A stretch of DNA of 64,000 bases. Source: Rhodobacteraceae bacterium IMCC1909. GTDB lineage: Bacteria; Pseudomonadota; Alphaproteobacteria; Rhodobacterales; Rhodobacteraceae. Below, in pieces: positions 31,099 to 49,584 of this stretch. Positions within the stretch are counted from its first letter, which is position 1. Each line of letters starts with the position of its first letter. The notes under the pieces are model-generated. The model searched no databases, was not told where the DNA came from, and was given only the letters and a program-made list of their open reading frames with translations. The position numbers and the translations under genes were made by a program. Location: the NCBI GenBank assembly GCA_030704425.1, contig JAPDHM010000001.1:620001-684000 (forward strand), given 5' to 3'.

Positions 31099-31128
31099 AA
31101 TTTCATTTTGGGATCCCAAAATGAAATT
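31099..31128. promoter_or_regulatory. Perfect 30-bp palindrome containing the operator core TTTTGGGATCCCAAAA
   Basis: Every base from 31099 to 31128 is matched by its complement around the centre 31113/31114. The core at 31106-31121 is the best of several copies found in front of the operons of this cassette (39551, 48633, 48767). It lies 236 bp before the TAXI receptor gene. It is the likely binding site of the FCD-type GntR protein encoded at 48796. Confidence 0.75.
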
Positions 31129-31163
31129 AAATCAGTAAAATTTATGTTTATTTTTAAAATTTC

Positions 31164-31192
31164 TTGACTTAAGGATCCCGAAATAATGTATT
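31164..31192 (+). promoter_or_regulatory. Candidate promoter of the TRAP-sulfatase operon with operator half-site
   Basis: TTGACT (31164-31169) and TGTATT (31187-31192) are spaced by 17 bp. AAGGATCCCGAAA, a degenerate copy of the operator core, lies between them. A repressor on this site would block RNA polymerase. The transcript would have a leader of about 165 nt. Confidence 0.5.
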
Positions 31193-31363
31193 GGGGCTCA
31201 GAAGACTGGACTCAAACGAATTGCGAATCTAAAGGTCCGCATTTTTGGGAGTGTCTGGTAGTGAGTTAGACAGGAAAACTGCAGCTCACTTTGTCATCTA
31301 GAGATTGATTGCGCAGCGGTAGCAACAGATTTGCCGCAATGTTTAGAGCTAAGGGAGGACACA

Positions 31364-32419
31364 ATGCTCAAGACTATATTCAAAACGGCCAGCGCCATGA
31401 CGTTCGCGCTAAGTGCAAGCGCGAGTTTCGCGCAAGTTAACTTGACATCCAATGCTGCTGGCGCAGGCACCGCCGGTGCGCTATCCGCGACGTCGCTCGT
31501 TGAGAACGCAGCAGAGCGCGGCATCGCCAATATTCAAATGAAAGATGGGCAAACCGGAACCAAATATATGATGGCCCTCGCGGAAGGTAAAATTGACCTT
31601 GCCAGCGGACCTTTCATTCTACCGTTCTTGATGGCGAAAGCAGCTGGTCCATATTCCAATTTGGAAAAAGACGCAGCTAAAGAGCTTGGTCACAGCATTG
31701 CGATGCTTTATCCATACACATTCTCAATCTTCACGCTCTATGCCTATGATGCCAAGGGAATTTCCGGTTGGGATGACCTCAAGGGCATGAAGGTTTTGAA
31801 TGGCCCGCCACGTGGCACTGCCGCTTTAAACTCACGTAGCTTGATCCAGCTCTTCACCGGCCTGAAGTCAGAAGACGATTACGATACGGTGACAGTGAAC
31901 TGGAGCCAGATGCCATCGGCGATTATCGACGGCACTGTTGATGCTGCTGTAATCCCTGCAATGTTCCCTGGACCGCGGGTGACTCAAGCTTCCGCTGCGG
32001 GTTCAATGACAATGCACTCTATGCCCAAGGAATTGTTCGAAGCGCCGGCAACGCAGAAGTTCTTGAACAAGCCTGGCTCAACGCCTTTCGTTGTGCCGCT
32101 TGCAGACATCAAAGCGGCGATGGGTGAAGGTTGGACCATTGTGTCTGAGGATGACATGTTCCGCGGCAAAGCTGTGCCTGGTGGGGATCTTGTTAACAAA
32201 AGCATGGACGAAGAGCTGGCCTACCAACTCACAAAGTCGCACATCGAGAATTTAGATGAGATCAAAGCGATGGCTCCATTCATGGCGACGCTTAACTTTG
32301 GTGATGTTTCCGAAAAAGCCAACGGTCTTTGCGGCGCAAACATCGTGAAGTTCCACCCTGGCGCGGTGCGTGCTTGGGAAGAAGCAGGACACATGCTACC
32401 TGACTGTTCCAAGCCTTAA
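31364..32419 (+). CDS. TAXI-family TRAP transporter solute receptor
   Basis: Periplasmic receptor of 351 residues. Its signal peptide (MLKTIFKTASAMTFALSASA) is cleaved near SFAQ. The mature part has the TAXI layout: an early glycine/alanine-rich stretch (AAGAGTAGALSA), QMKDGQTGTKYMMALAEG, and the central LKGMKVLNGPPRGTAA. AAGGAGGAC precedes ATG 31364. It is followed by a fused TRAP permease, with which it should form a sodium-driven importer for an organic anion. It heads the first operon of the GntR regulon. The ligand is unknown; association with sulfatases favours a sulfated anion. Confidence 0.88.
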   Translation: MLKTIFKTASAMTFALSASASFAQVNLTSNAAGAGTAGALSATSLVENAAERGIANIQMKDGQTGTKYMMALAEGKIDLASGPFILPFLMAKAAGPYSNLEKDAAKELGHSIAMLYPYTFSIFTLYAYDAKGISGWDDLKGMKVLNGPPRGTAALNSRSLIQLFTGLKSEDDYDTVTVNWSQMPSAIIDGTVDAAVIPAMFPGPRVTQASAAGSMTMHSMPKELFEAPATQKFLNKPGSTPFVVPLADIKAAMGEGWTIVSEDDMFRGKAVPGGDLVNKSMDEELAYQLTKSHIENLDEIKAMAPFMATLNFGDVSEKANGLCGANIVKFHPGAVRAWEEAGHMLPDCSKP

Positions 32420-32454
32420 TTCGGCGAACACTTTAAATTAGGAGGGCGCCAAAC

Positions 32455-34860
32455 ATGCGTCCTCCTTTTCAATTTACCTACTCCAGTAGGCAAAAGGTGG
32501 CTTCCGTCATGTCAGATCAAAACTCTACAAATTCCGCAATACCAGTCAAAAAACCTGTGTTTGTAGAACGACTTGTCTACATTTTGGCACTTCTGCTTGT
32601 TCTGCTTGGTCTCATAAACGTGACACCTGCTATTCCGGGCTGGGACAATCTGTGGAAAGATCTCACAGGGAACGAGTTCTTCAGGATACGTCGGTTCCCC
32701 ACGGAATGGCTGTTTCCGATCACATTCTTCTGGATGATGCTGATCGTAGCATTGAAACATTCAATGTGGCTCAGTTGGACAGACAGAGGCGCTAACGTCC
32801 GTCGTTTTGGAATTTTAATGGACGCCGCGCTTATCATAGCCGCTGCAGCAATTTCACTATCATACTTAATTGAGATAGAAGCCGTATGCTTGATCGATAC
32901 ATTTACCGGAGACCGTGAACGCCTAGTCGCCAAGGCATTACAGGCAGAAATTGACTTCGCTGAGCTTTATGGGTTGCCCGTACCTGACACCGCCGATGAT
33001 CCAGGGTGCGCGACCACAACAGGTAGCTGGTTGATCTTAATCATGTTCAGCGCCGTTGTTGTTTTCCTTGGCTACAATATTAAAGTCTGGGGATTGCCGC
33101 TCGTCCTAGTCTCAATCTTGATAGCCGCTTATACATTCTTTACAATTCTTAACTGGTACTTTTTTGGGCCAGAGGACCAAAACAAGTATTTAGTGACTAT
33201 TTTAAGCAGTGAAGATGTCAGGAGCCTTGGATCTAGCCATGGGTTGTTCCAAGATGCCTTGGTCAATCAATCTTCTGGCCTGCTCGGTCGTTTCATCAAT
33301 GTCCTGCTTGTTCTCGTGTTCCCATATGTCATTCTAGGTGCTCTTTTCGGGAAATGCGCGGGTGGCCAATCTTTGATCAAGCTCGCCTTTGCTGCAACCC
33401 GCAACTTGCGCGGTGGCCCAGCCCATGCGGCCGTCGTGTCTTCTGCGATGTTTGGAACGATCACGGGCGGCCCAGTTGTGAACGTCTTGTCCACGGGCGT
33501 TTTGACGATCCCAATGATGCTCAAGCGGGGCTTCTCCAAAGTCTTTTCAGGCGGCGTAGAGGCTGCCGCCTCTTCCGGCGGTGCAATTATGCCGCCGATC
33601 ATGGGCGTTGCTGCTTTCATCATGGCAGCTTTGACTGGTGTGCCATATCGCGAGATTATCATTGCCGCAACTTTGCCCGCTCTCTTCTACTTCTTCTGCT
33701 TGTTCCTCTCTGTCATGTTCCAAGCGCGTAAGCAAAAAATCGAAGCAGTCGGAGAATTAACTGAAGACATGAAACTAACAGGTGAGGATCGCCTTCATTT
33801 GATGCAAATCTTTGGTCCTGTTTTGTTGGTTCTGATACTTCTGCTTACTCCCAAAGACGCTGTCGGATGCAGCTGGTATTCTATCATGCTGGGCGCAGTT
33901 GTTGATCAAAGAAACGGGACGTGCGAGATCACATCCTTGCCTTGGATCATCGAGCTGTTCCAAAACGCGGCGGGTGATGCAAGCGCGGCGGGATGGTGGG
34001 CGGTGTTCCTCCTACTTATCCTGATGTTCGTCGACAAATCCTTCCGTGCCAAACCGATGAAGATCTTTGATGGTCTGTCGCAAGCGGGCGTGACGATCTC
34101 CACATTGTTCTTAATGTTCGTCGCTGTCACTGTGATCGATGTATGCTTGAACTTCACAGGCCTTGCTAAATTTGTGGCCGTTGATGTGCTTGGTTTCCTC
34201 AATTCCTTTGATGTTTCCGCCAACTCTGCTGGTTTCCAACTGTTCGCATTATTTTTGACAATGCTTTTGGCAGTCCTACTCGGCATGGGAATGCCAGCGG
34301 TGCCAGCCTACATTAACGTTGCGTTGCTGATGGGTCCGATGCTTGTGGGCCTAGGACTTGCGACGTTCACGGCGCATATGTTCATCTTTTACTTCGCAGT
34401 TGCCTCAGCTATCACGCCGCCCGTCGCATTGGCTGCGTTTGCAGCAGCGAGTATCACAAAGGCAGATCCGATGAAAACTGGTTTTTCGGCAGTGCGATCT
34501 GGTATCGTTATGTTCACCATTCCCTTCGTTTTCGCGCTCTACCCAGAATTATTGCTGATCGACAAGGCTGTGATTGATCCAAACAATGGGTTATTCATAG
34601 CGGGCTATGATGGATCCGTTAATTTTGGCTGGTTGGCATTGCTGATGTTCCGCATCGCCATGGCCCTTTATTTGGTGTCCAGCGCCCTTGCAGGGTTTGA
34701 CCGCAAAGCGCTGAAACCGATAATGATCTGCACGCGCCTCGTAATTGCAGTTCTGATCCTAGCGCGTCCGACCGAAATCTATGGTCTGGCATTAGCCGCA
34801 GGTTTTGTTCTGGTGGCATGGCATGCGCTGCGCAGCCGTGATGAACTACCAACAACATAG
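32455..34860 (+). CDS. TRAP transporter fused permease (4TM plus 12TM)
   Basis: Membrane protein of 801 residues with the small and large TRAP subunits in one chain, as usual for TAXI systems. The large domain carries FGTITGGPVVNVLSTGVLTI and EAAASSGGAIMPPIMG, the two transport motifs, and a second repeat with LGMGMPAVPAYINVAL and SAITPPVALAAFAAASI. ATG 32455 has AGGAGG upstream at ideal distance, although the first 18 residues are not hydrophobic; ATG 32509, preceded by AGGTGG, is an alternative. It follows the receptor by 35 bases and runs into the sulfatase gene. Confidence 0.9.
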   Translation: MRPPFQFTYSSRQKVASVMSDQNSTNSAIPVKKPVFVERLVYILALLLVLLGLINVTPAIPGWDNLWKDLTGNEFFRIRRFPTEWLFPITFFWMMLIVALKHSMWLSWTDRGANVRRFGILMDAALIIAAAAISLSYLIEIEAVCLIDTFTGDRERLVAKALQAEIDFAELYGLPVPDTADDPGCATTTGSWLILIMFSAVVVFLGYNIKVWGLPLVLVSILIAAYTFFTILNWYFFGPEDQNKYLVTILSSEDVRSLGSSHGLFQDALVNQSSGLLGRFINVLLVLVFPYVILGALFGKCAGGQSLIKLAFAATRNLRGGPAHAAVVSSAMFGTITGGPVVNVLSTGVLTIPMMLKRGFSKVFSGGVEAAASSGGAIMPPIMGVAAFIMAALTGVPYREIIIAATLPALFYFFCLFLSVMFQARKQKIEAVGELTEDMKLTGEDRLHLMQIFGPVLLVLILLLTPKDAVGCSWYSIMLGAVVDQRNGTCEITSLPWIIELFQNAAGDASAAGWWAVFLLLILMFVDKSFRAKPMKIFDGLSQAGVTISTLFLMFVAVTVIDVCLNFTGLAKFVAVDVLGFLNSFDVSANSAGFQLFALFLTMLLAVLLGMGMPAVPAYINVALLMGPMLVGLGLATFTAHMFIFYFAVASAITPPVALAAFAAASITKADPMKTGFSAVRSGIVMFTIPFVFALYPELLLIDKAVIDPNNGLFIAGYDGSVNFGWLALLMFRIAMALYLVSSALAGFDRKALKPIMICTRLVIAVLILARPTEIYGLALAAGFVLVAWHALRSRDELPTT

Positions 34861-34871
34861 GAGCTATAATA

Positions 34872-36455
34872 ATGAGCGAGCGTTCGAGCTATATCCTCTT
34901 CATCACGGATCAACAGCGTTACGATCACTTGGGCTGTAACGGCCATCCGGTTCTACGCACACCAAATATTGATGCAATGGCAGCTGAGGGCGTGAGCCAC
35001 GACCGGTTCTACGTTGCTTCTCCAGTTTGTATGCCAAACCGTGCAAGCCTTATGACCTGCCGTATGCCATCAAGCCATGGAACACGCTCGCTTGGAATTC
35101 CTCTTAATCATGACAGTGTGACATTTGTTGAACTTCTTGCGAACGCTGGCTATGACACTTGCTTGATTGGCAAAAGCCATCTACAGAACGTATCCGATTT
35201 TGACATACAGATCGAACCAACCAAGCATCGGGAAGGTTTTACAGCGCCACCCGAAGATCTGAATGTCGCAACCCGCTCGGACCTTGATAACGACACGTAT
35301 CAGTACGAGCGTCAGGCGTACTGGGATAAGCCCGACCCTAAAGTCCCAAAACCGTTTTATGGTTTCAAAGAATACTTCGCAGTTATGCGGCATGGCTTCA
35401 ACACAGGCGGAAGTCATCTCGAATGGGTCAAGAAGAACGCACCTGAAACTTTGGCTCTGCGTGGGCGTGACAAACAATTCGATCACGATTTCACCGTTCC
35501 TCAAGCGATCCGTACGAAAGTTCCAGAGGAACATTATTCCACGACCTATATCGCAAATCGTGCGGTTGAGTGGCTCAAAGCGAGGCGTAATAACAATAAG
35601 CCCTTCCTGCTGATGGTTTCCTTCCCTGATCCGCACCATCCGTTTACCCCGCCTGGAAAATATTGGGACATGTACAAGCCCGAAGATATGGTCGTGCCTG
35701 CCGCATATGAAGCTGATGACTGGGATCCGCCCGAGTACATAAAAGTAGCCGAACGTGACCGTGCCAAAGATCCAAAACTGGGTCAAATGGAAGGCTATTC
35801 GGTGGCTGTCTCCAAACAGGAGGCGTTGGAGGCGCGCGCACTGACTTGCGGAATGATCTCGATGATTGACGATGCGGTTGGCCGCGTGCGCGCGGCGGCG
35901 GCAGATGCAGGCGTCTCGGAAAATACTGTGCAAATATATACGTCCGATCATGGCGATCATTTGGGCGAACATCGCCTTTTGTTCAAAGGAGCGGAGCAAT
36001 ACGACAGCCTCACGCACGTTCCATTCATTTGGGCGGATCCGAAAGGCGACAGCGGCACTCGTACAGATGACTTAGCCCAAACACTTGATATTGGAACCAC
36101 CATCCTTGAGCATGCGAAGGTCGAAAAATCGATAGGAATGCAAGGCGTCGTTCTAGCCGCTGCTGGTGGCGTGGGCAGGGAAGCCGCACATATTCAATAT
36201 GAAACGCAACGCACGCAAGAAGCCTTTGGGCCTCGCCCCCGCGTTCATTCAATTGTTTATGAAAACTGGCGTCTCTCAATGTATCTTGGCAAGTGTCCTA
36301 ACGAGCTTTTTGACCTCTCAAACGACCCTGGCGAAATGGTCAATCTTTGGTGCAGCGCTAAACATCAAGACGTGAAAGCGCGATTAGTAGAGCGCTTAGC
36401 GGAGTTGGAGATTGCTGCGGTCGATCGCGTACCTCTCCCCACGGCTCAGGCTTAA
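34872..36455 (+). CDS. Type I sulfatase (formylglycine-dependent)
   Basis: Alkaline-phosphatase-superfamily hydrolase of 527 residues without a signal peptide, so it acts in the cytoplasm. The catalytic cysteine C53 is in VCMPNRASL, matching CxPxR, which an aerobic formylglycine-generating enzyme can modify. Metal ligands appear at ITDQQRYD near the N-terminus and in YTSDHGDHLGEHRLLFKG. The same fold includes phosphonate monoesterases and choline-sulfatases, so the ester class is not certain. It is encoded 11 bases after the TRAP permease, which links it to the imported substrate. No maturation enzyme gene is in the window. Confidence 0.87.
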   Translation: MSERSSYILFITDQQRYDHLGCNGHPVLRTPNIDAMAAEGVSHDRFYVASPVCMPNRASLMTCRMPSSHGTRSLGIPLNHDSVTFVELLANAGYDTCLIGKSHLQNVSDFDIQIEPTKHREGFTAPPEDLNVATRSDLDNDTYQYERQAYWDKPDPKVPKPFYGFKEYFAVMRHGFNTGGSHLEWVKKNAPETLALRGRDKQFDHDFTVPQAIRTKVPEEHYSTTYIANRAVEWLKARRNNNKPFLLMVSFPDPHHPFTPPGKYWDMYKPEDMVVPAAYEADDWDPPEYIKVAERDRAKDPKLGQMEGYSVAVSKQEALEARALTCGMISMIDDAVGRVRAAAADAGVSENTVQIYTSDHGDHLGEHRLLFKGAEQYDSLTHVPFIWADPKGDSGTRTDDLAQTLDIGTTILEHAKVEKSIGMQGVVLAAAGGVGREAAHIQYETQRTQEAFGPRPRVHSIVYENWRLSMYLGKCPNELFDLSNDPGEMVNLWCSAKHQDVKARLVERLAELEIAAVDRVPLPTAQA

Positions 36456-36460
36456 ATGAA

Positions 36461-37357
36461 ATGCCATTTGATACAACTTTTATCACGCTCGGAACCGCTG
36501 GTGGCCCTGTCCCAAAGCTTCATCGCGCTGCACCTGCTCATGCAATTACGTATGGCGATCGCGTGATCTTGATTGATTGCGGCGAAGGCGCGATGCAACA
36601 GTTGATGCGTGCTGGGATCGACTTTCGTCGCATTGATAAGGTCATCCTTTCGCATCATCATTTTGATCATATTGGCAGTCTGTTTACCTGCCTCGGGATC
36701 AATATGATGCTGCAACGCAAACAGCCGATCACGATCTATGGTCCACCGGGCACGCGTCAAATCGTTGAGGGTCTCGCGATGGCCTGTGATATTCCGCAAG
36801 CCATTGGCTTTGGCGTCGTCGGTCAGTCACTTCCACATCCGCGAAATTTTGTTCAGGTTGAGGAAATCGCTCCAGGCGACACGTTTGAAATCGATAATAT
36901 TCGCGTTTCATGCTGCGAAAACACGCATTATCGTGCCGAAACAGAACTGGGAACGAAGGGGCCTATCTCACTTTCTTTACGTTTTGACGCGCCTGATCGC
37001 TCTATAGTTTACACAGGCGACACGGGGCCGTGTCGCATGGTTGAGAATCTCGCCAAAGGCGCGCAACTGCTTGTGGGTGAAATGATGCTTGCAGAGCAAA
37101 TCATAGCGCAGCTTCAGGAGAAGAATCCTCACATGACGTCAGAGCGCATCACGATGATGGGTCAGCACCTTCACAGTCACCACCTGAGCCCAGAGCAATT
37201 GGGGGACCTCGCGGCCCGTGCGGGCGTTGCGCATGTGGTCGCCGTTCATATTCCGCTTGATAGTATCACGCCAGAAACTGCGCCCGACTTTACAGCGCGC
37301 ATTTCTCAAGTTTTTTCGGGTCAGGTTTCAATAGCCAACGATCTCGATCAGTTTTGA
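36461..37357 (+). CDS. Metallo-beta-lactamase-fold hydrolase, RNase Z-like
   Basis: Hydrolase of 298 residues. The zinc motif LSHHHFDHIG (H65-H67, D69, H70) and IDCGEGAMQQL are those of the RNase Z/AtsA-like branch, and VYTGDTGPC supplies the bridging aspartate. Zn-dependent arylsulfatases of the Pseudoalteromonas AtsA type belong to this branch, and the position among sulfatases makes a sulfatase or lactonase role plausible. A tRNA 3'-processing role is less likely in this operon. It starts 5 bases after the sulfatase stop. Confidence 0.82.
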   Translation: MPFDTTFITLGTAGGPVPKLHRAAPAHAITYGDRVILIDCGEGAMQQLMRAGIDFRRIDKVILSHHHFDHIGSLFTCLGINMMLQRKQPITIYGPPGTRQIVEGLAMACDIPQAIGFGVVGQSLPHPRNFVQVEEIAPGDTFEIDNIRVSCCENTHYRAETELGTKGPISLSLRFDAPDRSIVYTGDTGPCRMVENLAKGAQLLVGEMMLAEQIIAQLQEKNPHMTSERITMMGQHLHSHHLSPEQLGDLAARAGVAHVVAVHIPLDSITPETAPDFTARISQVFSGQVSIANDLDQF

Positions 37358-37371
37358 TTTAGGAAAATCAT

Positions 37372-38190
37372 ATGACTTTGACTTCAAAAGTGGCTCAAGC
37401 CGCGCGCAAACGCACAGAACGCCCTATGCCGCGCGTTTTAGTGGTCAAAGATGTTTGGCATCTAACGCCCAATATGATCCGTGTTGTGTTTGCTGGCCCT
37501 GAGCTTGATGGTTTCCCGAGCGGGCGCGACGGCGGAAATTGCAAGCTGATGATCCCCGAAAATGGCGAAACTAAAGAGCATTTTGTCGAGCGTCTGAGCA
37601 GTGGTCCACCGCCCGTTAGACGCACTTACACGGTACGCAAGTTTGATGCCTTTACGCATGAATTAAGCATCGATTTTGTTGCACATGGCGATGAAGGCCC
37701 TGCATCACGTTGGGCAAGTTCTGTTAGGGCTGGAGGTTTTCTGGGTTTCGCTGGTCCAAGTGAACCAAAGTTTATAGATTTTGATGCGGATTGGTATCTT
37801 GTTGCAGCTGATCCTTCGGCCATTCCGGTCGCAGCAGTTGCATTGGAGGCCATGCCACGTGATTCAAAAGGTGTCGCGATATTTGAGATCACTTCGGCAT
37901 TAGATCGACAAGAAATCGACGCACCGGCAGGCATAAAGATACATTGGTTGGTGCATTCTGATCCCCACAAAGCATCTACGCGCCAGGAAGACTTGATCAA
38001 AGCTATTGAATGGCCACAGGGCCGCGTAAAAACATGTATTGCAGGCGAGTCGGCCGTCATCCGGTCCTTGCGAGACTTCCTGATAAACGAAAAACAGGTG
38101 CCCCGCGAGGACACCTATATTTCAGGTTATTGGAAAATCGGTTTGATCGAAGACCAGCATCAAAAAGCCAAGCGAGACGGGGCTGATTGA
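37372..38190 (+). CDS. Siderophore-interacting protein-like flavin reductase
   Basis: FAD/NAD(P)H reductase of 272 residues. The N-terminal flavin domain has VRRTYTVRKFDAFTHELSID, with the RxYT motif, then DEGPASRWASSVRAGGFLGF, which binds FAD. The C-terminal nucleotide domain ends in the family stretch SGYWKIGLIEDQHQ. Relatives such as ViuB and YqjH reduce ferric siderophores. With no siderophore genes nearby, an electron-supply role for the cassette is possible. AGGAAA precedes ATG 37372. It is the last gene of this operon and converges on the alkylsulfatase gene with 17 bases between them. Confidence 0.83.
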   Translation: MTLTSKVAQAARKRTERPMPRVLVVKDVWHLTPNMIRVVFAGPELDGFPSGRDGGNCKLMIPENGETKEHFVERLSSGPPPVRRTYTVRKFDAFTHELSIDFVAHGDEGPASRWASSVRAGGFLGFAGPSEPKFIDFDADWYLVAADPSAIPVAAVALEAMPRDSKGVAIFEITSALDRQEIDAPAGIKIHWLVHSDPHKASTRQEDLIKAIEWPQGRVKTCIAGESAVIRSLRDFLINEKQVPREDTYISGYWKIGLIEDQHQKAKRDGAD

Positions 38191-38207: not shown

Positions 38208-39485
38208 TTAGATGTCGCCTTGTTCCAGTTCTTTCGCATATTGAATATAGTAGTGGCGTGTCGGGCAGTTGATTTGCGCAACGGCGTGCGCGCGAAGTGC
38301 CTCTGCTTTTAGTTGCTTCGCATTGGCAACCTCATAATCCACATTCAGCAGGCGATCCAAAAGCTGTAGTGCCCACTGGAAATCACCATCTTTCAGCGCC
38401 TTTTGGGCAGAACCTAAGACAGCGGCGTTGCCACCTGCCAAGTCAATGAAACGCATTGCTTCATCTTTAGGTGATAACGGCGATAGCGAGGTCGGATTGC
38501 CGTCAAACCAACCCATGGTTCCGACAAAATAGGCACGCACAGAAAAATCAACGCGGCCATAATACTCCCGCAGATGGGGTTTTTCGGCCAAATGATCCGG
38601 CAATTTCACTCTATGCGCGAGTTCGTCAATTGTCAGTCCTGCGTCCATACCATTGCGGGTTTCATCGACAATATGACGGATTGCGTCACGGTAATCTGTC
38701 AAATCACTCTTGATTTTCTCCGCGCCAAAAACCGCTTTTGTGTGACCCGGACCAAGCACCTCTGGTCCAAAACCCATCAGTAAATCCATTGTATCCGCCC
38801 AAGAATCAAAATCTCGATAGGCAGTTCCGCGTGGAGGATAAAGGTTTGGAAAAGAGCGATAGAAATTATCGCCACATATCAACACTTTCTTATCTGCATA
38901 CCAAACAACAATGTGATCAGGGGTTTCGCCAGGTGCGTGTACAAGCTCCAGATCAATACCGTGAAGGCTTAACTTTTCACCTTCATCCCCGATGCGTCGC
39001 GTAGGCGGTAAAGCCCCCGCCCCCATTCCTTTCAGTGGACGCGCGCCTGGACCGACCCCGATGCCAATGATCTCATTGGGATACGATAATCCAATACCGA
39101 ACTGACGTTTTGTTCGGACCTGCATAGCCTTTACTGGCTGTGGATGATTGGATGCAACAAAGAGCGAGTCTTCCGAGAAACCTGTGCTCGCGAGGATCTC
39201 CGGATTACCCCCTTTTGCAAAAATACTGGCACCTGAAACATGATCACGGTGTGAATGCGTAAGGATGATCGTTTTGATTGGTAGATCGGTAATCTTGCGG
39301 AACTCGGCCAAAATATTTTCAGCCGCGACCGTTGTCTCAGACGTATCAACAATGATCAAACCATCATCACCGATGATCATATAAACGTTTGAAGCAGCAA
39401 ACCCGAAAGCTTGATAGACGTTATCTGCCAATTGCACGATTTCTTTTTTGAAATACTCGGGATGAGCTTTGAGTTCTGGGTGCAT
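38208..39485 (-). CDS. Alkyl/aryl-sulfatase, SdsA1-like (metallo-beta-lactamase type III)
   Basis: Enzyme of 425 residues. The zinc-binding motif THSHRDH is at residues 76-82 and a C-terminal alkylsulfatase domain follows. That domain is recognisable from YFVGTMGWFDGNPTSLSPL, FIDLAGGNAAVLGSAQKAL and FQWALQLLDRLLN, which match the SdsA1/BDS1 dimerisation region. The group cleaves the C-O bond of long-chain alkyl sulfates with inversion. There is no signal peptide. ATG 39485 has AAGGA nine bases upstream; two earlier in-frame starts lack one. An operator copy lies 66 bp upstream, placing the gene in the GntR regulon. It is shorter than SdsA1, which has an extra sterol-carrier-like domain. Confidence 0.85.
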   Translation of the reverse strand: MHPELKAHPEYFKKEIVQLADNVYQAFGFAASNVYMIIGDDGLIIVDTSETTVAAENILAEFRKITDLPIKTIILTHSHRDHVSGASIFAKGGNPEILASTGFSEDSLFVASNHPQPVKAMQVRTKRQFGIGLSYPNEIIGIGVGPGARPLKGMGAGALPPTRRIGDEGEKLSLHGIDLELVHAPGETPDHIVVWYADKKVLICGDNFYRSFPNLYPPRGTAYRDFDSWADTMDLLMGFGPEVLGPGHTKAVFGAEKIKSDLTDYRDAIRHIVDETRNGMDAGLTIDELAHRVKLPDHLAEKPHLREYYGRVDFSVRAYFVGTMGWFDGNPTSLSPLSPKDEAMRFIDLAGGNAAVLGSAQKALKDGDFQWALQLLDRLLNVDYEVANAKQLKAEALRAHAVAQINCPTRHYYIQYAKELEQGDI

Positions 39486-39550
39486 GTAACGGTGTCCTTG
39501 CATTTTCAGGGGCGTGCAGAAACAGGCCTGTTTTATAAAATTAAGCAATT

Positions 39551-39564
39551 ATGGGATCCCAAAA
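39551..39564. promoter_or_regulatory. Operator copy upstream of the alkylsulfatase gene
   Basis: The core ATGGGATCCCAAAA differs from the consensus TTTGGGATCCCAAA at a few outer bases. It lies 66 bp upstream of the minus-strand start at 39485, in a 259-bp divergent intergenic region that also serves the DctP gene. Confidence 0.65.
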
Positions 39565-39612
39565 TCAAGTACTTTTGTGAATTTCGGCTGATTTAAGAGA
39601 AAAAACCTTGGT

Positions 39613-39697: not shown

Positions 39698-39744
39698 TTT
39701 ATCTGGTTCTAGTCAAGATTTGGCTCTAACTGAGGGAGAAAACT

Positions 39745-40758: not shown

Positions 40759-40816
40759 AACAGCTTTACAGCGCGCTTTGATTGATTACTTAAATCGAAA
40801 ATAAGGAACACGTCAT

Positions 40817-41578
40817 ATGGCCGTCATAACACCCAAAAACAAGACTGTTGAAACCTTCACAGGACTGCACTTGTACCACGGTGCCATTTCTAACTGCTCG
40901 ATGCGCGTAAGAATGACACTTATTGAAAAAGGGCTGGCTTGGGAAAGCCATCACCTAGACTTGAAGAAAAAAGAAAATATTTCTGATGAATATTTTGGCA
41001 TAAACCCGAACGGCCTGGTGCCAACTTTAATTGACAACGGCGTTGTTCATATCGAGTCAAATGACATAATAGATTACCTTGATGAAACCTATCCAGAACC
41101 ATCGTTGCGAGCAAAAAACAATGTGGAGATGATGGAATGGCTGCATCTTGCTGCAGCTATCCATGTCCCAGGCTGCAAGCCTTACGTGTATGCCATGAAG
41201 ATGGCTCCAAAATTAAAGAAAACAGCAAAAGAGCAGGCGAAGTACGATGATTTGCAAAAAAATCAAGAATTAAAGGCATTTCATTCCAAACATGCCGGTG
41301 ACAAGAGTTTTGAAACTAGCGATCTGGACAAGGCCAAGGCGATTTTGGATACGTCTTTCTTTAAACTGGAACAAACCCTAGAAGGCCGAACCTGGATTAT
41401 GGGACATCAATACACACTGGCTGACATCTCATGGATACCCCTACATTTTGTTTTGAAGGGCTGCGGATACTCTTTTGAAAAATTTCCAAATATTACGCGT
41501 TGGGCAGAAACCTTTTGCGAAAAAGATAGCTATAAAGAGGGTGTTTTGAAATGGTGCCCAGACTTTGCTGAAGTATAA
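40817..41578 (+). CDS. Glutathione S-transferase, LigF-like group
   Basis: GST of 253 residues. The thioredoxin-like N-domain has LYHGAISNCSMRVRMTLIEKG, then INPNGLVPTLIDNG with the cis-proline, and HIESNDIIDYLDETYP, the glutathione-binding segment with its SND (usually ES-T/V-I). The helical C-domain carries WIMGHQYTLADISWIPL. The arrangement resembles bacterial beta-etherases and dehalogenating GSTs. AAGGA precedes ATG 40817. It is transcribed with dctP and so lies behind the same operators as the sulfatases. A second related GST is at 46326. Confidence 0.85.
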   Translation: MAVITPKNKTVETFTGLHLYHGAISNCSMRVRMTLIEKGLAWESHHLDLKKKENISDEYFGINPNGLVPTLIDNGVVHIESNDIIDYLDETYPEPSLRAKNNVEMMEWLHLAAAIHVPGCKPYVYAMKMAPKLKKTAKEQAKYDDLQKNQELKAFHSKHAGDKSFETSDLDKAKAILDTSFFKLEQTLEGRTWIMGHQYTLADISWIPLHFVLKGCGYSFEKFPNITRWAETFCEKDSYKEGVLKWCPDFAEV

Positions 41579-42680: not shown

Positions 42681-43865
42681 TTATGCAATCCGTTTAATCT
42701 TGAGCTTTGTCTTCAAATCCGTCTTGCAGAAGGCATGCAGGAAGCACGTCTTCTCTGAAATATCGAGCATCTCTTGCGCGGTTGCATCGCTCTCAGAGGT
42801 TTCAAGATAGACGTGTGTTTCAATCGGATCCGCACTACCTGCTTTGCCAGTGCCACCGCTTGCGCCACCTAGGCTAAAGTGCGTGTCCTGAACGATGCGG
42901 TAATCAGGCAAGTCGAGTTTGAGCATAGACACGAAGCGTCCGAACTGCGTCATGAAGCAAAACCCGATGCCAGCTGAGATCAGAGTATTCGCATCTGGTG
43001 CGCGGCCATCTTCTGAACTGAGTAGCACGAACGATGTTCCATAGGGCGAGTATTGCATCTGCTGGATTTGCTTAATTCCATCCTTTCGCAATTCAGCCAC
43101 CGCACCAATATTGAGACGTCGGTTCTGCTCATCACTCAGGGAAGACGCGTTGGTCGCAGTACCACCGCTTACGTCTTTTTTTGGTGTTGGTCCAACCTTG
43201 GTCATCAAGTCATCTGTGGCATCCGCAGGCATCGCTTTGGCAAAATGATCGCCAGGGTCAGGCAGTATCGCGCCGCTAAATTCAAAAGCATTGGCAGTCG
43301 CTAGCTCTGAGCCGTTTTTGCTCAACTTAAACAAGCTCTCAATCTTCCCACGCATCAAGCCATTGAGTGGAGATGCATAGGTCGCATTCACCAAAAATTC
43401 ATTCAATGCAGCATCATCTAGATCACAATCAATCTCGACCTGTAGCTCAATATTTTCCGCACCACCCACCATGGTACGCTTCATCATTGAGCCTTTCATC
43501 GTATAGTAATTATCCTGAATAAGCTTGAGCTTACGGATCTCAACACCCTGTTGTTCAGCTAGCGCTGTGATTTCGTTCATGTAACTTGCAGCCATTCCGC
43601 AAGACAGAAACGCAAGTGGGCAGCAAGCCGCGTCATGGCCATTCAGGTACGGTCCTTCATCACTTACAAAACGCCATGTGTCACCGGTCTTGGCAGAGCG
43701 CACTAATGCCTCTTTCTGGAAACCACTAAGCGAGCGCACCCATGTGCGATCTGCATCGCCTATGCGATTTTCAGGTGCTTGAATTCCAATCTCATCTGCA
43801 TTTGCAACTTTGAAGAACGGTGTTTGAGTGCTTCTTCCAATAATATCTTCGCCAAGATGTGCCAT
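42681..43865 (-). CDS. Tandem OsmC-like peroxiredoxin/hydrolase domain protein
   Basis: Protein of 394 residues with two OsmC-fold domains. The first (about 60-200) has a cysteine-rich segment DAACCPLAFLSCGMAASYM (C81, C82, C89), where OsmC proteins carry the first catalytic cysteine. The second (about 250-390) has GFCFMTQFGRF and EKTCFLHAFC for the two redox cysteines. Typical OsmC proteins are 140 residues and homodimeric, so this looks like a covalent dimer. OsmC proteins reduce organic hydroperoxides, and some relatives hydrolyse thioesters or act with glutathione conjugates. It is operonic with GST, SDR, ALDH and sulfatase genes. Confidence 0.75.
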   Translation of the reverse strand: MAHLGEDIIGRSTQTPFFKVANADEIGIQAPENRIGDADRTWVRSLSGFQKEALVRSAKTGDTWRFVSDEGPYLNGHDAACCPLAFLSCGMAASYMNEITALAEQQGVEIRKLKLIQDNYYTMKGSMMKRTMVGGAENIELQVEIDCDLDDAALNEFLVNATYASPLNGLMRGKIESLFKLSKNGSELATANAFEFSGAILPDPGDHFAKAMPADATDDLMTKVGPTPKKDVSGGTATNASSLSDEQNRRLNIGAVAELRKDGIKQIQQMQYSPYGTSFVLLSSEDGRAPDANTLISAGIGFCFMTQFGRFVSMLKLDLPDYRIVQDTHFSLGGASGGTGKAGSADPIETHVYLETSESDATAQEMLDISEKTCFLHAFCKTDLKTKLKIKRIA

Positions 43866-43905
43866 CAGTCAAATTCCTTCTAGAAACCTTATTATTAGTG
43901 TTGGC

Positions 43906-45543
43906 TTAGTGTGCTTTTGGCCCAGATTCGAAATCAGGAGCCGTTGCTGGAGGCTTTACGTCCTCTTCATCCCAGTACCCGATAAGCACGCCAAACTTGT
44001 CCTCAAGACCGACCATTTGCTCCGCCCGTTCTTCTGATACGGTTTCGCGTTGGCGATACTGTAAAGACCAGTCAGCTAAAGCGTAGTGCATATATTGCCG
44101 GGCATCTGTGTGATCATCTGAGTTTCCCAAATCGACAAATTCGTCTGGGTCATTTGTTAGATCAAACAGAATTGGCAAAAATCCGGGTGCGTGGATGTAT
44201 TTCCATCGATCATTCTTGATCATATAGATCCGGCACTCGAGCGGTGCGCGACCTGTCTTTGGGCTGAAGGACTGTTGAAAATAATCATATTCACTAACAA
44301 CGAATTCGCGCCACGGCACGTCATTCCCTTGCAGTAAAGGCATTAGGGAACGACCATCAAGAATGTGCTTAGGCACAGCTCCACCAGCATACTCGATAAA
44401 CGTCGGCACAAGATCAATTGCTTCAACAGGTGCGTTCTGCACACTACCGCGCGTATTGTCACATGACGGATCAGGGTCGGCAATGATAAGTGGGACTTTG
44501 ACGGCAGGATCGTGGAAAAAATCTTTGTCCCCCATCCAGTGATCACCAAAATATTCGCCATGATCTGATGTGAACACAATCATCGTGCTCTTCATAAGAT
44601 CCTTTTTTTCCATGAACTCGAAAAGTATGCCAAGTTGATCATCTATTTGTTTGATCAGACCCATATACGCAGGTATCACAGTCTCGCGGGCCTCTTCCTT
44701 GGAGAAAGTTCGCCCGCAAATCCGTTCTTGGAAGTGCTGTGCAAGTTGGTTGGTATTTTCGCGTTCTGTTTCAGACCTGTGAACATCCTGAACATCCGCC
44801 GCTGAGTACATATCGTTGTAGGGCGCAGGTGCAATGTAGGGCCAGTGTGGCTTGATATAACTCAGGTGAAGACACCATGGCTTTTCGCCATCGTCTTCTT
44901 CGATAAATTGCATTGCGCGGCGGGTCATATAGGGTGTTTCGGAGTCTTCTTCACTTACCCGCGCTGGCAGTTGCGCGACATCATTGAAGAATCCTGAACG
45001 GATTTCGCCCCTGCGCTCAACCGAGTTCGCAGCCCAATGCCAAGGGTTCTCGTGGTCGTCATAGCCGCGTTCTTTGAGGTAATTATTATACGCAACATTT
45101 GGCTTCAAAACGAGGTCGGGATGGATACCATCATCGCGCTCATAAGGTTCGAACCCGATTTGTGAATGATGCACACCGATTGGGCTCGCTGGGTCAATGC
45201 CGAGACGTTTCATCCCTTCTTGATCAGGGATCATGTGGGTCTTGCCTACTAGAACTGTGCGAATTCCCAAAGGCTTGAGATGGTCGCCAATGTTAAGTTC
45301 TCCCACGCGCAAAGGTACGAAATTGGCGGTCGCCCCATGATTAGATGGATAGCGCCCCGTGTATGTACTCATGCGACTTGGGCCGCAAATCGGAGACTGC
45401 ACGTAAGCATTAGAAAAGCGAACACCGCGCTCTGCGAGAGAGTCGATGTTGGGCGTGTGCAAGGTCTTGTGACCTGCACAGGATAGGTAATCATAGCGCA
45501 ATTGATCGCACATGATGAAGAGGATGTTCTTGCGCTGGGACAT
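43906..45543 (-). CDS. Type I sulfatase (formylglycine-dependent), second paralogue
   Basis: Enzyme of 545 residues, only distantly similar to the sulfatase at 34872 and without a signal peptide. C53 lies in ICGPSRMSTYTGRYPSNHG, a full CxPSR sulfatase signature. Metal-binding segments are IMCDQLRYD and FTSDHGEYFGDHWM. The C-terminal part with KYIHAPGFLPILFDL is common in the choline-sulfatase/arylsulfatase branch. It sits between an SDR gene (5 bases) and the OsmC gene (40 bases) in the minus-strand operon controlled from 48633. Two type I sulfatases in one regulon suggest a substrate with several ester groups or two related substrates. Confidence 0.88.
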   Translation of the reverse strand: MSQRKNILFIMCDQLRYDYLSCAGHKTLHTPNIDSLAERGVRFSNAYVQSPICGPSRMSTYTGRYPSNHGATANFVPLRVGELNIGDHLKPLGIRTVLVGKTHMIPDQEGMKRLGIDPASPIGVHHSQIGFEPYERDDGIHPDLVLKPNVAYNNYLKERGYDDHENPWHWAANSVERRGEIRSGFFNDVAQLPARVSEEDSETPYMTRRAMQFIEEDDGEKPWCLHLSYIKPHWPYIAPAPYNDMYSAADVQDVHRSETERENTNQLAQHFQERICGRTFSKEEARETVIPAYMGLIKQIDDQLGILFEFMEKKDLMKSTMIVFTSDHGEYFGDHWMGDKDFFHDPAVKVPLIIADPDPSCDNTRGSVQNAPVEAIDLVPTFIEYAGGAVPKHILDGRSLMPLLQGNDVPWREFVVSEYDYFQQSFSPKTGRAPLECRIYMIKNDRWKYIHAPGFLPILFDLTNDPDEFVDLGNSDDHTDARQYMHYALADWSLQYRQRETVSEERAEQMVGLEDKFGVLIGYWDEEDVKPPATAPDFESGPKAH

Positions 45544-45548
45544 AAGGT

Positions 45549-46307
45549 TTAAAGGTTCACCTTGCCGCCATCGACGTTGATCGTCTGACCAGTGATAAAA
45601 TCGCTGTCAGATGTGCACAAAAATATGAGCGTTCCAAGAAGATCTTCGGGCACCATTTCGCGTTTGATCGAACGGGAATCAACGGTGGGAGCGCGTGCGC
45701 GATCCCATTTTTTGTTGTCGCGAATAGAGCTGCTTTCGGTTAGGCCAACAGCTATTGCATTGATTTGAATATTCTTTTCACCAAGTTCGCGCGCATGACC
45801 ACGGGTCAAACCGATAACAGCGGCTTTGGATGCGGTGTAATGTGATAGGCCGGGAGGGCCATAATAGAACGTACCAGAGGCGATGTTGACAATCTTGCCA
45901 CCACCCGCGCGTACCAGCGCAGGAAGCGCAGCTTTAGTCGATTGGTGAATTGAGCGCGCGTTGATTGTCATAACCTTATCAAATTCGTCATTATCGATCT
46001 GGAAAAACGGTTTCAGTTCCAAGTTTGCAAAGAGACCCGCGTTGTTGACAACGATGTTGAGCGCACCAAATTCGTCTTCAGCTTTCGCGACCATCGCATT
46101 CAGATCATCATCTGATGTTACATCCACAATCATACCAACGGCACGGCCACCCTCTGCAGCGTTGATCTCGGCCACCACCTCTGCTGGGTCAAGAATGTCA
46201 GTCACCATGACGTTGGCCCCCTCATTGGCCAATTTTTTCGCATATTCCGCGCCAATGCCGCGCGCAGCACCAGTGATTGCGGCTGTTTTTCCAATTAGTC
46301 GGCCCAT
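45549..46307 (-). CDS. Short-chain dehydrogenase/reductase
   Basis: NAD(P)-dependent SDR of 252 residues. TGAARGIGAEYAKKLA is the nucleotide-binding motif, NNAGLFANLE follows, and the active site Ser-Tyr-Lys is in NIASGTFYYGPPGLSHYTASKAAV. The end FITGQTINVDGGKVNL is typical of FabG-like classical SDRs. An aspartate near the end of the second strand (VTDILDP) suggests preference for NAD+. AGGAGG precedes ATG 46307. In this operon, oxidation of an alcohol freed by sulfate removal is a sensible role, feeding the aldehyde dehydrogenase or a GST step. Confidence 0.9.
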   Translation of the reverse strand: MGRLIGKTAAITGAARGIGAEYAKKLANEGANVMVTDILDPAEVVAEINAAEGGRAVGMIVDVTSDDDLNAMVAKAEDEFGALNIVVNNAGLFANLELKPFFQIDNDEFDKVMTINARSIHQSTKAALPALVRAGGGKIVNIASGTFYYGPPGLSHYTASKAAVIGLTRGHARELGEKNIQINAIAVGLTESSSIRDNKKWDRARAPTVDSRSIKREMVPEDLLGTLIFLCTSDSDFITGQTINVDGGKVNL

Positions 46308-46325
46308 GTCAGCCTCCTCTATTTC

Positions 46326-47144
46326 CTAGATTTCAATTTCAAGAATCTTAGCAACTTCTGGCCAGCTTTTGATCCCGTTCTCACGCAGATCATTCGTGAG
46401 ATCTTCAGGCACCCAGTCGATAAAGCAAGGTTTGAAATTCTCACGCGCTTCGATGGCCTTGAACCAGCGCTCCACATTGGGCAAACGTCCACCTTCCCAC
46501 ATGCCGCGCATCGACATCATTGCAAGACGATTGATGTAGGGTGTCAGCGCGATGTCAGCGATGGAGAATTTATTGCCAACCAGCCAATCATTACCAGTCA
46601 GCGCTTTGTCCATCTTGTGCAGATAGCTGTCGTAAAGTTTAACTTTTCCCAACGCTCCAGGTGCCTCAAAGCCTTGGCGCACGATAGCATCTTTGAAACT
46701 CTTCCAATCAGATGTGACAGAAAAATCTGGTGTGGAGGCAAGGAATTTATTTGCTCCTTCTTTACCAAGCTTGCGCAAAACTGTGTGGCGGTGCGAACAT
46801 AAAAACGTCATCGCGCCACAAGCAGGATGCAGATCCTCATCCACCGCTTTGGTCCAATAGCGCGCCTGCGCGCGCTCCCAAGGATCTTTGGGATGAGTAG
46901 AATTTTCTGGTGCAATTTGATCGAGGTATTCGATGATCACAGTACTGTCTGGGATAACCAAGTCATCATGCACAAGTGTTGGCACAACCGACTTCGCATT
47001 GATCTTTTGATACTCGGGTGTGAATTGCTCACCTGCAAGAATATCGATGTAAACACCTTCCCATTTCATGCCTTTTTCCGCCATCGCAAAGCGAACCTTA
47101 GCAGCGCATACTGATGATCCGTGATGATAAAGTGTAAAAGTCAT
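46326..47144 (-). CDS. Glutathione S-transferase, LigF-like group, second paralogue
   Basis: GST of 272 residues. LYHHGSSVCAAKVRFAMAEKG starts the thioredoxin-like fold, KSVVPTLVHDDLVIPDSTVI holds the cis-proline and glutathione site, and WLVGNKFSIADIALTPYINRL is the C-domain motif. Length and inserts match the bacterial beta-etherase (LigF) group better than housekeeping GSTs. ATG 47144 overlaps the aldehyde dehydrogenase stop (ATGA). A 46-codon upward extension of the frame lies wholly inside that gene and is rejected. Its coupling to ALDH and SDR genes points to a catabolic, not detoxifying, use of glutathione. Confidence 0.86.
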   Translation of the reverse strand: MTFTLYHHGSSVCAAKVRFAMAEKGMKWEGVYIDILAGEQFTPEYQKINAKSVVPTLVHDDLVIPDSTVIIEYLDQIAPENSTHPKDPWERAQARYWTKAVDEDLHPACGAMTFLCSHRHTVLRKLGKEGANKFLASTPDFSVTSDWKSFKDAIVRQGFEAPGALGKVKLYDSYLHKMDKALTGNDWLVGNKFSIADIALTPYINRLAMMSMRGMWEGGRLPNVERWFKAIEARENFKPCFIDWVPEDLTNDLRENGIKSWPEVAKILEIEI

Positions 47145-48577
47145 AATTGCACCGTAACCCATTTGAGTTCTGTCATTGCTTCCATGTCTGCGTCCGTGCC
47201 TTCGCGACCTACGCCGCTTTCGCCATTTCCGCCAAAGGGCACATGGGCCTCGTCGTGAATGGTTGGACCATTTATGTGGCACATGCCCGCTTTGGAATTA
47301 CGCACGAAGTGGAAAGCTTTGTCGATGTCTTTGGTGAATATCGCAGATGATAGCCCATATTCAGTGTCGTTCGCTTTTTCCAATCCTTCCTCGTAGTTCT
47401 CAATTGGATAGATCGCAGTGACTGGGCCAAATGTTTCAGTTTGGCAAACAGTCATGTCCTCCGATACCTCTGTGAGCAAAGTCGGCTGGCACCGATTACC
47501 TTCCCATTCGCCGCCGATCACATTTGCACCTTTGGCGCGCGCGTCGTCGACATGGCTTTTTATTCGTTCTCGTTGTCGTGGCGAAATTATTGGCGCGATA
47601 ACAGTATTCGGGTCGCGCAGATCGCCCATACCAAGTTTGCGGATGATCATCGAGAAACGCTTTACGAATTCATCGTATAAAGGTCGTTCCACATAGAAAC
47701 GGCTCGACGCTATGCAGGCTTGTCCTGCGAACATAAAGACAGAGCGCGCGGCAAGCGGCATCACGTTGTCCAAGTCGGCATCTGCGAGGATTATCGTGGG
47801 GCTTTTACCGCCCAATTCCAGCGTGTTCGGCGTTTTATTCTTGGCGCAGATCTCGTTGATATGCTGACCCACCAACGTTGAGCCTGTGAACGTCAAAAAA
47901 TCGATATCTTTGTGGCCGGTCAGATCATCGCCAATCTCTGCGCCCATGCCTGTTACCACATTATACACACCATCGGGGATACCAGCTTCTTCAACGATCT
48001 CCGCGAAGATCAAACTCAGATGAGGGGCCATTTCAGAGGGTAGATGGACAACCGTGTTTCCGACCGCCAAGGCATTGGCCACCAAACGTGTAGTCTTTAT
48101 CAGTGGCACATTAAACGGTGTGATCACTGCGACAACACCAAGCGGTTCACGGATGGACATCGAGAACGTACCGGGGCGATCAGATGGGATCGTCTCGCCA
48201 CGCACATTGCGACACAAACCGGCGGCGGCACGGATCATCGTCAAGCCTTTAGTGAATTCAAACATTGCCTTTTGCACGGGTGAGCCGATCTCGTCGATCA
48301 AGCAATTTACCAGATCTTTCTGACGCGCTTCCATGATTTCTGCGACCCGCAAGAGCCAGCGCTCGCGCTCGGTTGGCGTTGTTTCTTTGTAAGATGTGAA
48401 GGCTGCCTTTGCTGCCGCCACTGCATTGAAGATATCTTCGGTCGTTCCTTTCGCAGCAAAAGCATAATGCGAGTCGTCAAGAGGGTTAAACACTTCGAAC
48501 ATTGCACCAGCCGCTGCATCGACCCATTGCCCTGCAATAAAGTGCTTCAAGGATTTACTGTCTGTCCCACCATCCAT
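47141..48577 (-). CDS. Aldehyde dehydrogenase (NAD(P)+), aromatic aldehyde-type
   Basis: ALDH of 478 residues. The general base is in LELGGKSPTI and the catalytic cysteine in FAGQACIASSR. VVAVITPFNVPLIKTTR and FTGSTLVGQHI bind the coenzyme. Overall the sequence resembles the vanillin/salicylaldehyde/benzaldehyde dehydrogenase branch, though aliphatic aldehydes cannot be excluded. AAGGAG lies eight bases before ATG 48577. It is the first gene of the operon and an operator copy is centred 63 bp upstream of its start. Confidence 0.9.
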   Translation of the reverse strand: MDGGTDSKSLKHFIAGQWVDAAAGAMFEVFNPLDDSHYAFAAKGTTEDIFNAVAAAKAAFTSYKETTPTERERWLLRVAEIMEARQKDLVNCLIDEIGSPVQKAMFEFTKGLTMIRAAAGLCRNVRGETIPSDRPGTFSMSIREPLGVVAVITPFNVPLIKTTRLVANALAVGNTVVHLPSEMAPHLSLIFAEIVEEAGIPDGVYNVVTGMGAEIGDDLTGHKDIDFLTFTGSTLVGQHINEICAKNKTPNTLELGGKSPTIILADADLDNVMPLAARSVFMFAGQACIASSRFYVERPLYDEFVKRFSMIIRKLGMGDLRDPNTVIAPIISPRQRERIKSHVDDARAKGANVIGGEWEGNRCQPTLLTEVSEDMTVCQTETFGPVTAIYPIENYEEGLEKANDTEYGLSSAIFTKDIDKAFHFVRNSKAGMCHINGPTIHDEAHVPFGGNGESGVGREGTDADMEAMTELKWVTVQL

Positions 48578-48632
48578 GAAAAGGCTCCTTTTGACGCGCG
48601 TTACTTGGCATGGGTCTGAACTTTATAACCGG

Positions 48633-48646
48633 TTTGGGATCCCAAA
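48633..48646. promoter_or_regulatory. Operator copy upstream of the aldehyde dehydrogenase operon
   Basis: TTTGGGATCCCAAA is a perfect 14-bp palindrome. It lies 56 bp from the ALDH start codon in the 218-bp divergent region shared with the GntR gene. This is the exact consensus of the set. Confidence 0.75.
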
Positions 48647-48706
48647 AAAAGAGCAGGCCACAGCTTCACGCTAGATTCTGTGTATTGAAGCCTATACAAT
48701 TACCAT

Positions 48707-48719
48707 TATGGATCCCAAA
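48707..48719. promoter_or_regulatory. Imperfect operator copy in the aldehyde dehydrogenase-GntR intergenic region
   Basis: TTATGGATCCCAAA keeps the right half-site intact and has two changes on the left. It lies midway between the two perfect or near-perfect sites at 48633 and 48767 and could support looping or cooperative binding. Confidence 0.5.
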
Positions 48720-48761
48720 TCAAGCACAAAATTTTAAAATCGATAAGTTTTGGTCGCAATG

Positions 48762-48790
48762 TTGACTTTGGGATCCCAATAGGCTGAATG
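48762..48790 (+). promoter_or_regulatory. GntR gene promoter overlapping an operator copy
   Basis: TTGACT (48762-48767) is followed directly by the operator TTTGGGATCCCAAT (48767-48780) and, at 17-bp spacing, a weak TGAATG (48785-48790). Transcription would then begin almost at ATG 48796, giving a leaderless message, which fits the absence of a ribosome binding site. Binding here would produce autoregulation. Confidence 0.55.
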
Positions 48791-48795
48791 GGCCT

Positions 48796-49584
48796 ATGGA
48801 ATCTATTGATACAGAACTTGCAGCGCGAATTCGCAATGACATCGTGCTCGGCAATTATGGTGAAGAAGAACGCATCTCCGAGGCGCGCTTGTGCGATACC
48901 CACAAGGTTTCGCGCACGCCGGTGCGCCTTGCTCTTCGTATGTTAGAGCATGAAGGGCTCATTCGACGCAGCGAAGGGCGCGGCTATTTTGTTAACGCAC
49001 CAAATGTAAATGACGTCTTGCAAGCAGTGCAGGTACGCGGCCACCTCGAAAGCCTCGCCGCGCGGCTCATGGCGCAATCGCCTGATCGACTCAGCACACT
49101 TCCTATCTTGGAAGCGGCGATTGAAGAGATCGATAGGCTTATTTTAGTGGGCAAGATGGATCACGCTTCAATTCGCTTAATACAAAAACAGAATGCAGTG
49201 TTTCACAAAACGATTTTGGAATGTTGCGGCAATGATTTTATCGGCTTTACGTGTAGTCGTATCAGTCACATGCCGATGCTAGAGGTTGGGGCCATGGTTT
49301 TCGATCGGCAAGTTCTGTCCACAAAAGAGGGCAAGGAGAGGAGCAACTTCCGCCTTAAACTTGGAAATTCACAACATAAAGTGATCTTTGAGGCTATTCA
49401 AAAGGGCGACGCTGTGCGAGCCGAAGGCGTTATGCGCGAGCATTCGAACACTATGATTGAATACATTCAGGTTTTTGAAAAGCGCACAAAAGAAGAGCTG
49501 ACAATCAAAGATTTGATCGACTATTCTGGCCTCAGTGTTATGCGCAAAGAGCATGACACGATTGGGAAAGAAAAATCGCTGTAG
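48796..49584 (+). CDS. GntR-family transcriptional regulator, FCD subfamily (proposed regulator of the sulfatase-GST regulon)
   Basis: Regulator of 262 residues. The winged helix has RISEARLCDTHKVSRTPVRLAL and the wing RRSEGRGYFVNAP. The FCD domain follows, with NAVFHKTILECCGNDFIGF and the second histidine in REHSNTMIEYIQ. It is divergent from the ALDH operon with an operator over its own promoter. Because the same palindrome precedes the TRAP-sulfatase, alkylsulfatase and DctP operons, this protein is the natural candidate for their repressor. The inducer is probably a small carboxylate made from the imported substrate, as for other FCD proteins. Confidence 0.9.
   Translation: MESIDTELAARIRNDIVLGNYGEEERISEARLCDTHKVSRTPVRLALRMLEHEGLIRRSEGRGYFVNAPNVNDVLQAVQVRGHLESLAARLMAQSPDRLSTLPILEAAIEEIDRLILVGKMDHASIRLIQKQNAVFHKTILECCGNDFIGFTCSRISHMPMLEVGAMVFDRQVLSTKEGKERSNFRLKLGNSQHKVIFEAIQKGDAVRAEGVMREHSNTMIEYIQVFEKRTKEELTIKDLIDYSGLSVMRKEHDTIGKEKSL

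Follow-up and report, generated by a model that had tools for sequence, protein, structure and literature searches.

We propose that a VanR-group FCD-GntR repressor, the product of the gene at position 48796, binds as a dimer to the 14-mer TTTGGGATCCCAAA, an even-centred palindrome present in eight copies in the window (the whole 64,000-nucleotide stretch of DNA analysed), that it would silence its targets by promoter occlusion together with bridging of operators by a tetramer or cooperating dimers, and that a metabolite would induce five transcripts; we place the probability of this reading at roughly 0.85. The copies occupy three intergenic regions, 964 bp together, which serve five promoters in a single cassette of Planktomarina (Rhodobacteraceae). 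Matches with at most three mismatches number 13 in the window against 4.3 expected, a count reached in 0 of 100 shuffles, so the copies are not a product of chance. All eight had been listed in an earlier note, from whose positions the exact starts differ by 0-2 bases, and the perfect 30-bp palindrome described there is real. That the copies are confined to the upstream regions of the cassette's operons was also borne out, the sole other window site of at least 11 bits (at 1668) being intra-ORF; of the “four operons” named at the time, the upstream placement stands and the number does not, for there are five promoters, those of the TAXI operon, the alkylsulfatase, the DctP operon, the ALDH operon and gntR. 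New here are the regular intervals between sites and the -35 boxes abutting them. The features, with no strand assigned to operators, are as follows.

31099-31128: perfect palindrome, 30 bp.
31107-31120: predicted auxiliary operator TTTGGGATCCCAAA, 0 mismatches, within the 30-bp perfect palindrome, 62 bp upstream of the 31169 site.
31169-31182: predicted operator TTAAGGATCCCGAA of the TAXI operon promoter, 3 mismatches, abutting the -35 box TTGACT (31164-31169).
31331-38190, plus strand: operon for TAXI binding protein, fused TRAP permease, sulfatase, MBL hydrolase and SIP-type FAD reductase (Pfam, NCBIfam).
38208-39548, minus strand: SdsA1-like MBL alkylsulfatase (Pfam; PDB 2cfu, 185 bits).
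39550-39563: predicted operator TATGGGATCCCAAA, 1 mismatch, followed by ATCAAG, the -35 box of the alkylsulfatase promoter (minus strand).
39608-39613: -35-like TTGGTA near the weak operator, probable DctP promoter.
39612-39625: weak predicted operator TATAGGATCCCATC, 4 mismatches, 14.4 bits by weight matrix, probable DctP promoter.
39685-39698: predicted auxiliary operator TTTGGGATCCTAAT, 2 mismatches, 73 bp from 39612.
39745-41578, plus strand: operon for DctP TRAP binding protein and GST.
42681-48577, minus strand: operon for aldehyde dehydrogenase (ALDH), LigF-like GST, SDR, sulfatase and OsmC-family protein, in minus-strand order.
48633-48646: predicted auxiliary operator TTTGGGATCCCAAA, 0 mismatches, no conserved -35 box; the middle site is 73 bp away.
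48706-48719: predicted operator TTATGGATCCCAAA, 2 mismatches, followed by TCAAG, the -35 box of the divergent ALDH promoter (minus strand).
48762-48767, plus strand: gntR -35 box TTGACT, abutting the operator; TTGAC is invariant in 19 loci.
48767-48780: predicted autoregulatory operator TTTGGGATCCCAAT within the -35/-10 spacer of gntR, 1 mismatch, 30 bp before the ATG.
48796-49584, plus strand: FCD-GntR (VanR-group) regulator gene, 262 aa (Pfam GntR and FCD), with Atu1419 of Agrobacterium fabrum nearest by sequence and fold.

At the gntR, ALDH, TAXI and alkylsulfatase promoters the predicted operator fills the -35/-10 spacer beside a TTGA(C/T) -35 box, a placement that points to repression by occlusion, in which a dimer of the 48796 repressor on the even palindrome would block RNA polymerase; the arrangement is less clear at the DctP promoter. 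The copy at 48767 had been described as overlapping the gntR -35 box; it does so by one base only, and it fills the spacer as well. Each of the three intergenic regions also holds one auxiliary operator without a promoter, and the phasing of these auxiliary sites suggests that dimers cooperate on one DNA face, most simply as a tetramer bridging two operators. Such a tetramer (Atu1419-like), or two cooperating dimers, would bend the DNA between the operators. A metabolite of the sulfate-ester breakdown pathway would then bind the zinc-containing FCD pocket and free the DNA, and this release would induce all five transcripts, among them that of the repressor itself.

Orthologues of the 48796 product (57-100% identity) occur in three further Planktomarina genomes, elsewhere in the Rhodobacteraceae, and in MAGs labelled Rhizobiaceae, Geminicoccus and Gammaproteobacteria; loci almost identical to the present one carry annotations as Planktomarina and Rhodobacterales MAGs. 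The sites are retained with orthologues down to 57% identity, in ~20 genomes, and are kept where the intervening and flanking DNA has been randomised. In 19 of the 19 loci having a proximal site it starts exactly 30 bp before the gntR ATG, with TTGAC preceding it, and after the middle site comes TCAAG or a near variant of it, the -35 box of the divergent gene; that gene is ALDH in some genomes and DctP or GST in others, and the sites persist. Rearranged alkylsulfatase, sulfatase and TAXI promoters carry sites too. The -35 boxes at the proximal and middle sites reach up to 2.0 bits of information per base, and the distal or auxiliary site, which has no -35 box, is conserved equally with the other sites (1.64 bits per base). 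In an orthologue from the Planktomarina genus (G019, 64% identity; L019 1420-1501), CTTGACTTTG is kept upstream of the gntR start and the remainder of the proximal operator is lost, which suggests that autoregulation has been lost there and counts against the proposed reading. At the gntR start in our window (48780-48796) no Shine-Dalgarno sequence was seen, and because 19 orthologous loci conserve a -10-like TnAAT ~6 nt upstream of the ATG, the gntR mRNA is probably leaderless.

In 29 arrays, counted after near-identical loci of Planktomarina had been collapsed and with the gap in L113 left out, neighbouring sites lie 53, 54, 60-64, 73-75 or 96 bp apart, which at 10.5 bp per turn corresponds to ~5, 6, 7 and 9 turns. 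Triads at orthologous loci are spaced 73/62, 73/61, 64/62 or 53/63, so that the distance of the distal site shifts in ~10 bp steps (73, 64, 53). One exception counts against this regularity: in L113 (9825-10241), the gntR-proximal site lies 416 bp from the middle site, with about 350 bp between it and the remainder of the array. Common descent accounts for part of the constancy and inflates the array counts, and an independent set of spacings was therefore sought. Distant homologues (27-34% identity) often have TGTATACA upstream, some of them in pairs spaced 63 and 73 bp; one homologue at 36% identity has two TTGGATCCA sites 52 bp apart. When 395 Rhodobacteraceae genomes, almost all one per genus, were scanned for paired Atu1419-type TGTATACA at centre spacings of 48-78 bp, a range picked after 52, 63 and 73 had been seen, so that other spacings may occur (e.g. 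36 bp in L035), 21 pairs were found versus 4 for the reversed control pattern. A GntR homologue adjoins 19 of the 21, with spacings of 52 (1), 62 (5), 63 (10), 73 (2) and 74 bp (1), giving a Rayleigh p of about 2e-8 at 10.5 bp in a test that resolves the period no better than about 10-11.5 bp; the DNA between the paired sites varies from pair to pair. Extending the scan to the class yielded four extra pairs (62, 63, 73 and 74 bp), and a GntR homologue lies near two or three of these; the other class-wide pairs (50, 51, 54 and 66 bp, 25-bp repeats) look unrelated, have no GntR neighbour and were set aside. A literature search on this operator word and on helical spacing in GntR regulators returned nothing relevant.

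The fixed spacing could conceivably arise with independent dimers, as the mere geometry of back-to-back promoters that each have an operator beside the -35 box; the proximal and middle operators do adjoin facing -35 boxes, and promoter distance alone would set the interval between them. We regard this as possible but clearly the less probable account, because the auxiliary operators, which have no -35 box, are phased too (53, 62, 64, 73-75 and 96 bp), because the spacing moves in ~10 bp steps, and because relatives with another operator word show the same step set. Bridging of phased operators by a tetramer or by cooperating dimers is the best-supported mechanism. It would require a sharp DNA bend, since 63 bp amounts to ~21 nm of DNA against ~10 nm between the palindromes on the Atu1419 tetramer, and we take this geometry to be compatible with bridging by an Atu1419-type tetramer. 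A wider generalization, to which we give about even odds, is that a VanR-group GntR lineage of the Rhodobacteraceae and some other Alphaproteobacteria obeys a six-turn rule, whereby a tetramer would occupy a pair of palindromes at 62-63 bp, or more rarely at 52 or 73-74 bp, with the DNA bent round it, and the words (TGTATACA, TTGGATCCAA, TTTGGGATCCCAAA) would have diverged while the spacing was kept.

The 48796 product is an FCD-type GntR protein, with PF00392 at 55.9 bits and PF07729 at 52.9 bits, both above the cut-off. A six-helix FCD domain defines the VanR group; the predicted structure (pLDDT 75; built from a shallow alignment and informative on fold only) has six long C-terminal helices, and Foldseek ranks Atu1419 first and other VanR-type entries, e.g. 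AlkR, after it, so that the modelled protein qualifies for the VanR group on both helix number and nearest structures. Its putative metal ligands N133, H137, H194 and H216 are invariant in 13 orthologues and align with the zinc ligands N137, H141, H192 and H214 of Atu1419, and the residues matching the DNA contacts of Atu1419 (R26, E29, S39, R40, T41 and R44) are equally invariant in these 13.

Operators are predicted in the regulator's own promoter and at the neighbouring operons and are conserved in orthologues, the pattern of an autoregulated local regulon. The link between regulator and palindrome, earlier deduced from position, gains support from the footprints at ~20 orthologous loci, from the way the sites track rearranged genes, from co-occurrence and from the homology to Atu1419, and two paralogues (40-41% identity) have none of these sites alongside. 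Five genomes contain the exact word (G000, G002, G011, G020 and G039), all with an orthologue, compared with 0 of 54 genomes lacking one (Fisher p 3.5e-6, a value that, like the other p-values, counts events in related genomes as independent when they are not); in G019 and G033 the orthologue is accompanied by near-exact copies only. Alkylsulfatase homologues of at least 71% identity were found only in genomes with the regulator, and hence no regulator-free promoter could serve as a negative control. It could be argued that the palindrome belongs to another regulator or to a nucleoid protein and that the GntR gene is just one more target, since a target gene could likewise carry such a site; this is quite improbable, given that a GntR orthologue is present in every locus with a site array despite shuffled neighbours, that exact copies are missing from genomes without an orthologue, that a 36% homologue has TTGGATCCAA pairs, and that the half-site matches the FadR-subfamily consensus with a 2-nt centre (PMC4494728). 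Comparative evidence therefore strongly supports the sites as operators of the 48796 FCD-GntR product.

Exact copies of TTTGGGATCCCAAA number two in the whole genome (3.27 Mb), both in the cassette. Four of the six copies with at most one mismatch fall in 31099-48796, as do 6 of 30 with at most two (binomial p 1e-8), and all six of the latter lie within the 964 intergenic bp (p 4e-16). A genome scan by weight matrix, proposed in the earlier note and carried out with a matrix built from orthologous loci, placed its five top scores on cassette sites, and none of the outside sites listed in it has a spaced partner 50-130 bp away. Nor are sites equally frequent in unrelated intergenic DNA: the outside sites of at least 15.6 bits whose placement was checked (L005, L006, L013, L097, L098, L100 and C2:819158, thus all but C2:520219 and C1:1585718) are intra-ORF. 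As further regulon members we considered and rejected window site 1668 (inside ORF 1597-1941), L005 (purC), L006 (acyl-CoA synthetase), L097, L098 and L100 (all intra-ORF) and a cluster at C2:817-819 kb, which lies in a single 915-aa ORF. Enrichment of a BamHI-like palindrome by chance or base composition, for which scattered one-mismatch copies in the genome and its relatives might speak, is already rejected by these counts and retains a negligible probability, as the scattered copies examined are intra-ORF and without spaced pairs and the enrichment is concentrated in the intergenic bases.

In total the cassette encodes two type-I sulfatases, the SdsA1-like alkylsulfatase, a second MBL hydrolase and two GSTs, one with LigF nearest over its whole length. 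The likely route is import of a sulfate ester with its desulfation and oxidation, in which a glutathione-dependent step on an ether or thioether may take part; for the ligands of the TRAP binding-protein PDB entries, our literature search found no paper. The listed alkylsulfatase start (TTG at 39548) falls in the promoter, and the true start is probably ~60 bases downstream; the protein is shorter than SdsA1 (446 vs 658 aa). The LigF-like GST ORF (46326-47282) and the ALDH ORF (47141-48577) overlap by ~140 bases, and homology suggests that the GST starts near residue 44-48. A remnant of a TRAP small permease at window 41597-41833 matches the first third of the L052 DctQ at 73% identity, and DctM is missing, leaving the DctP operon without its permease in this genome; both are intact in G011 (L095 14093-15957), where the counterpart of operator 39612 scores 18.6 bits by weight matrix against 14.4 bits here. 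The adjacent cassette at 50533-53891, with a 4-sulfomuconolactone hydrolase/LigI-like amidohydrolase, a PrpF-like isomerase and an RraA-like aldolase, resembles a pathway for aromatic ring cleavage and is without sites of the 48796 regulator.

One repressor thus appears, from these genomic patterns, to switch a set of sulfate-ester genes in a marine bacterium. For a regulator uncharacterised so far, in an abundant group of marine bacteria, this gives a new operator word and a predicted five-promoter regulon, and the spacing rule is common to relatives with differing words. Targets of this large, mostly unassigned family could be sought by a practical criterion, two sites spaced 52, 62-63 or 73-74 bp with a GntR gene next to them. 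As Atu1419 has been reported to be a DNA-looping tetramer, bridging of phased operators by such repressors becomes directly testable.

How do these operators compare with known ones? According to the parts of PMC4494728 drawn on here, FadR-subfamily operators with a 2-nt centre (UxuR, HypR, PrpR and others) have TKGT/ACMA-like half-sites, and the divergons of the subfamily have double sites, a fraction of them at constant distance. The present sites share the 2-nt centre, the TKGT/ACMA-like half-sites and the doubling in divergons; they differ in that T at -2 is G here (TGGG-AT-CCCA), and the helical-turn rule seen here is not reported for FadR-subfamily operators in those parts of the paper. 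BusR offers a parallel: this GntR-type repressor is a tetramer and requires a pair of sites, a set distance apart, on the same face of the DNA (PMC8517857). Its sites, however, are 22 bp apart, it has a coiled-coil ruler and a c-di-AMP ligand and is not an FCD protein, and it is reported not to loop DNA, which counts against the analogy with bridging (PMC8517857).

Closest is Atu1419, a VanR-group FCD GntR repressor (PDB 6z74/6za3) and reported tetramer on an even palindrome, in which an essential G at position 3 is read by Arg45 and for which a DNA loop between sites 190 bp apart has been seen by electron microscopy; it regulates hydroxycinnamate genes, with methylenetetrahydrofolate as the proposed effector (PMC7797058). 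The two proteins are only ~28% identical. The Atu1419 operator is ATGTATACAT, against TGGGATCCCA here, the present word being TTTGGGATCCCAAA and that of more distant homologues TGTATACA. Its loop-partner sites are reported at spacings of 190 and 109 bp, as opposed to 62 here, and the 109-bp interval does not correspond to whole helical turns, which again counts against the bridging analogy (PMC7797058). Atu1419 is nevertheless the best match in both sequence and fold, with conserved DNA-contact and zinc residues, and the two systems have in common an even A|T centre with G at -3, an operator in the -35/-10 spacer of the regulator's own gene and more than one operator per region.
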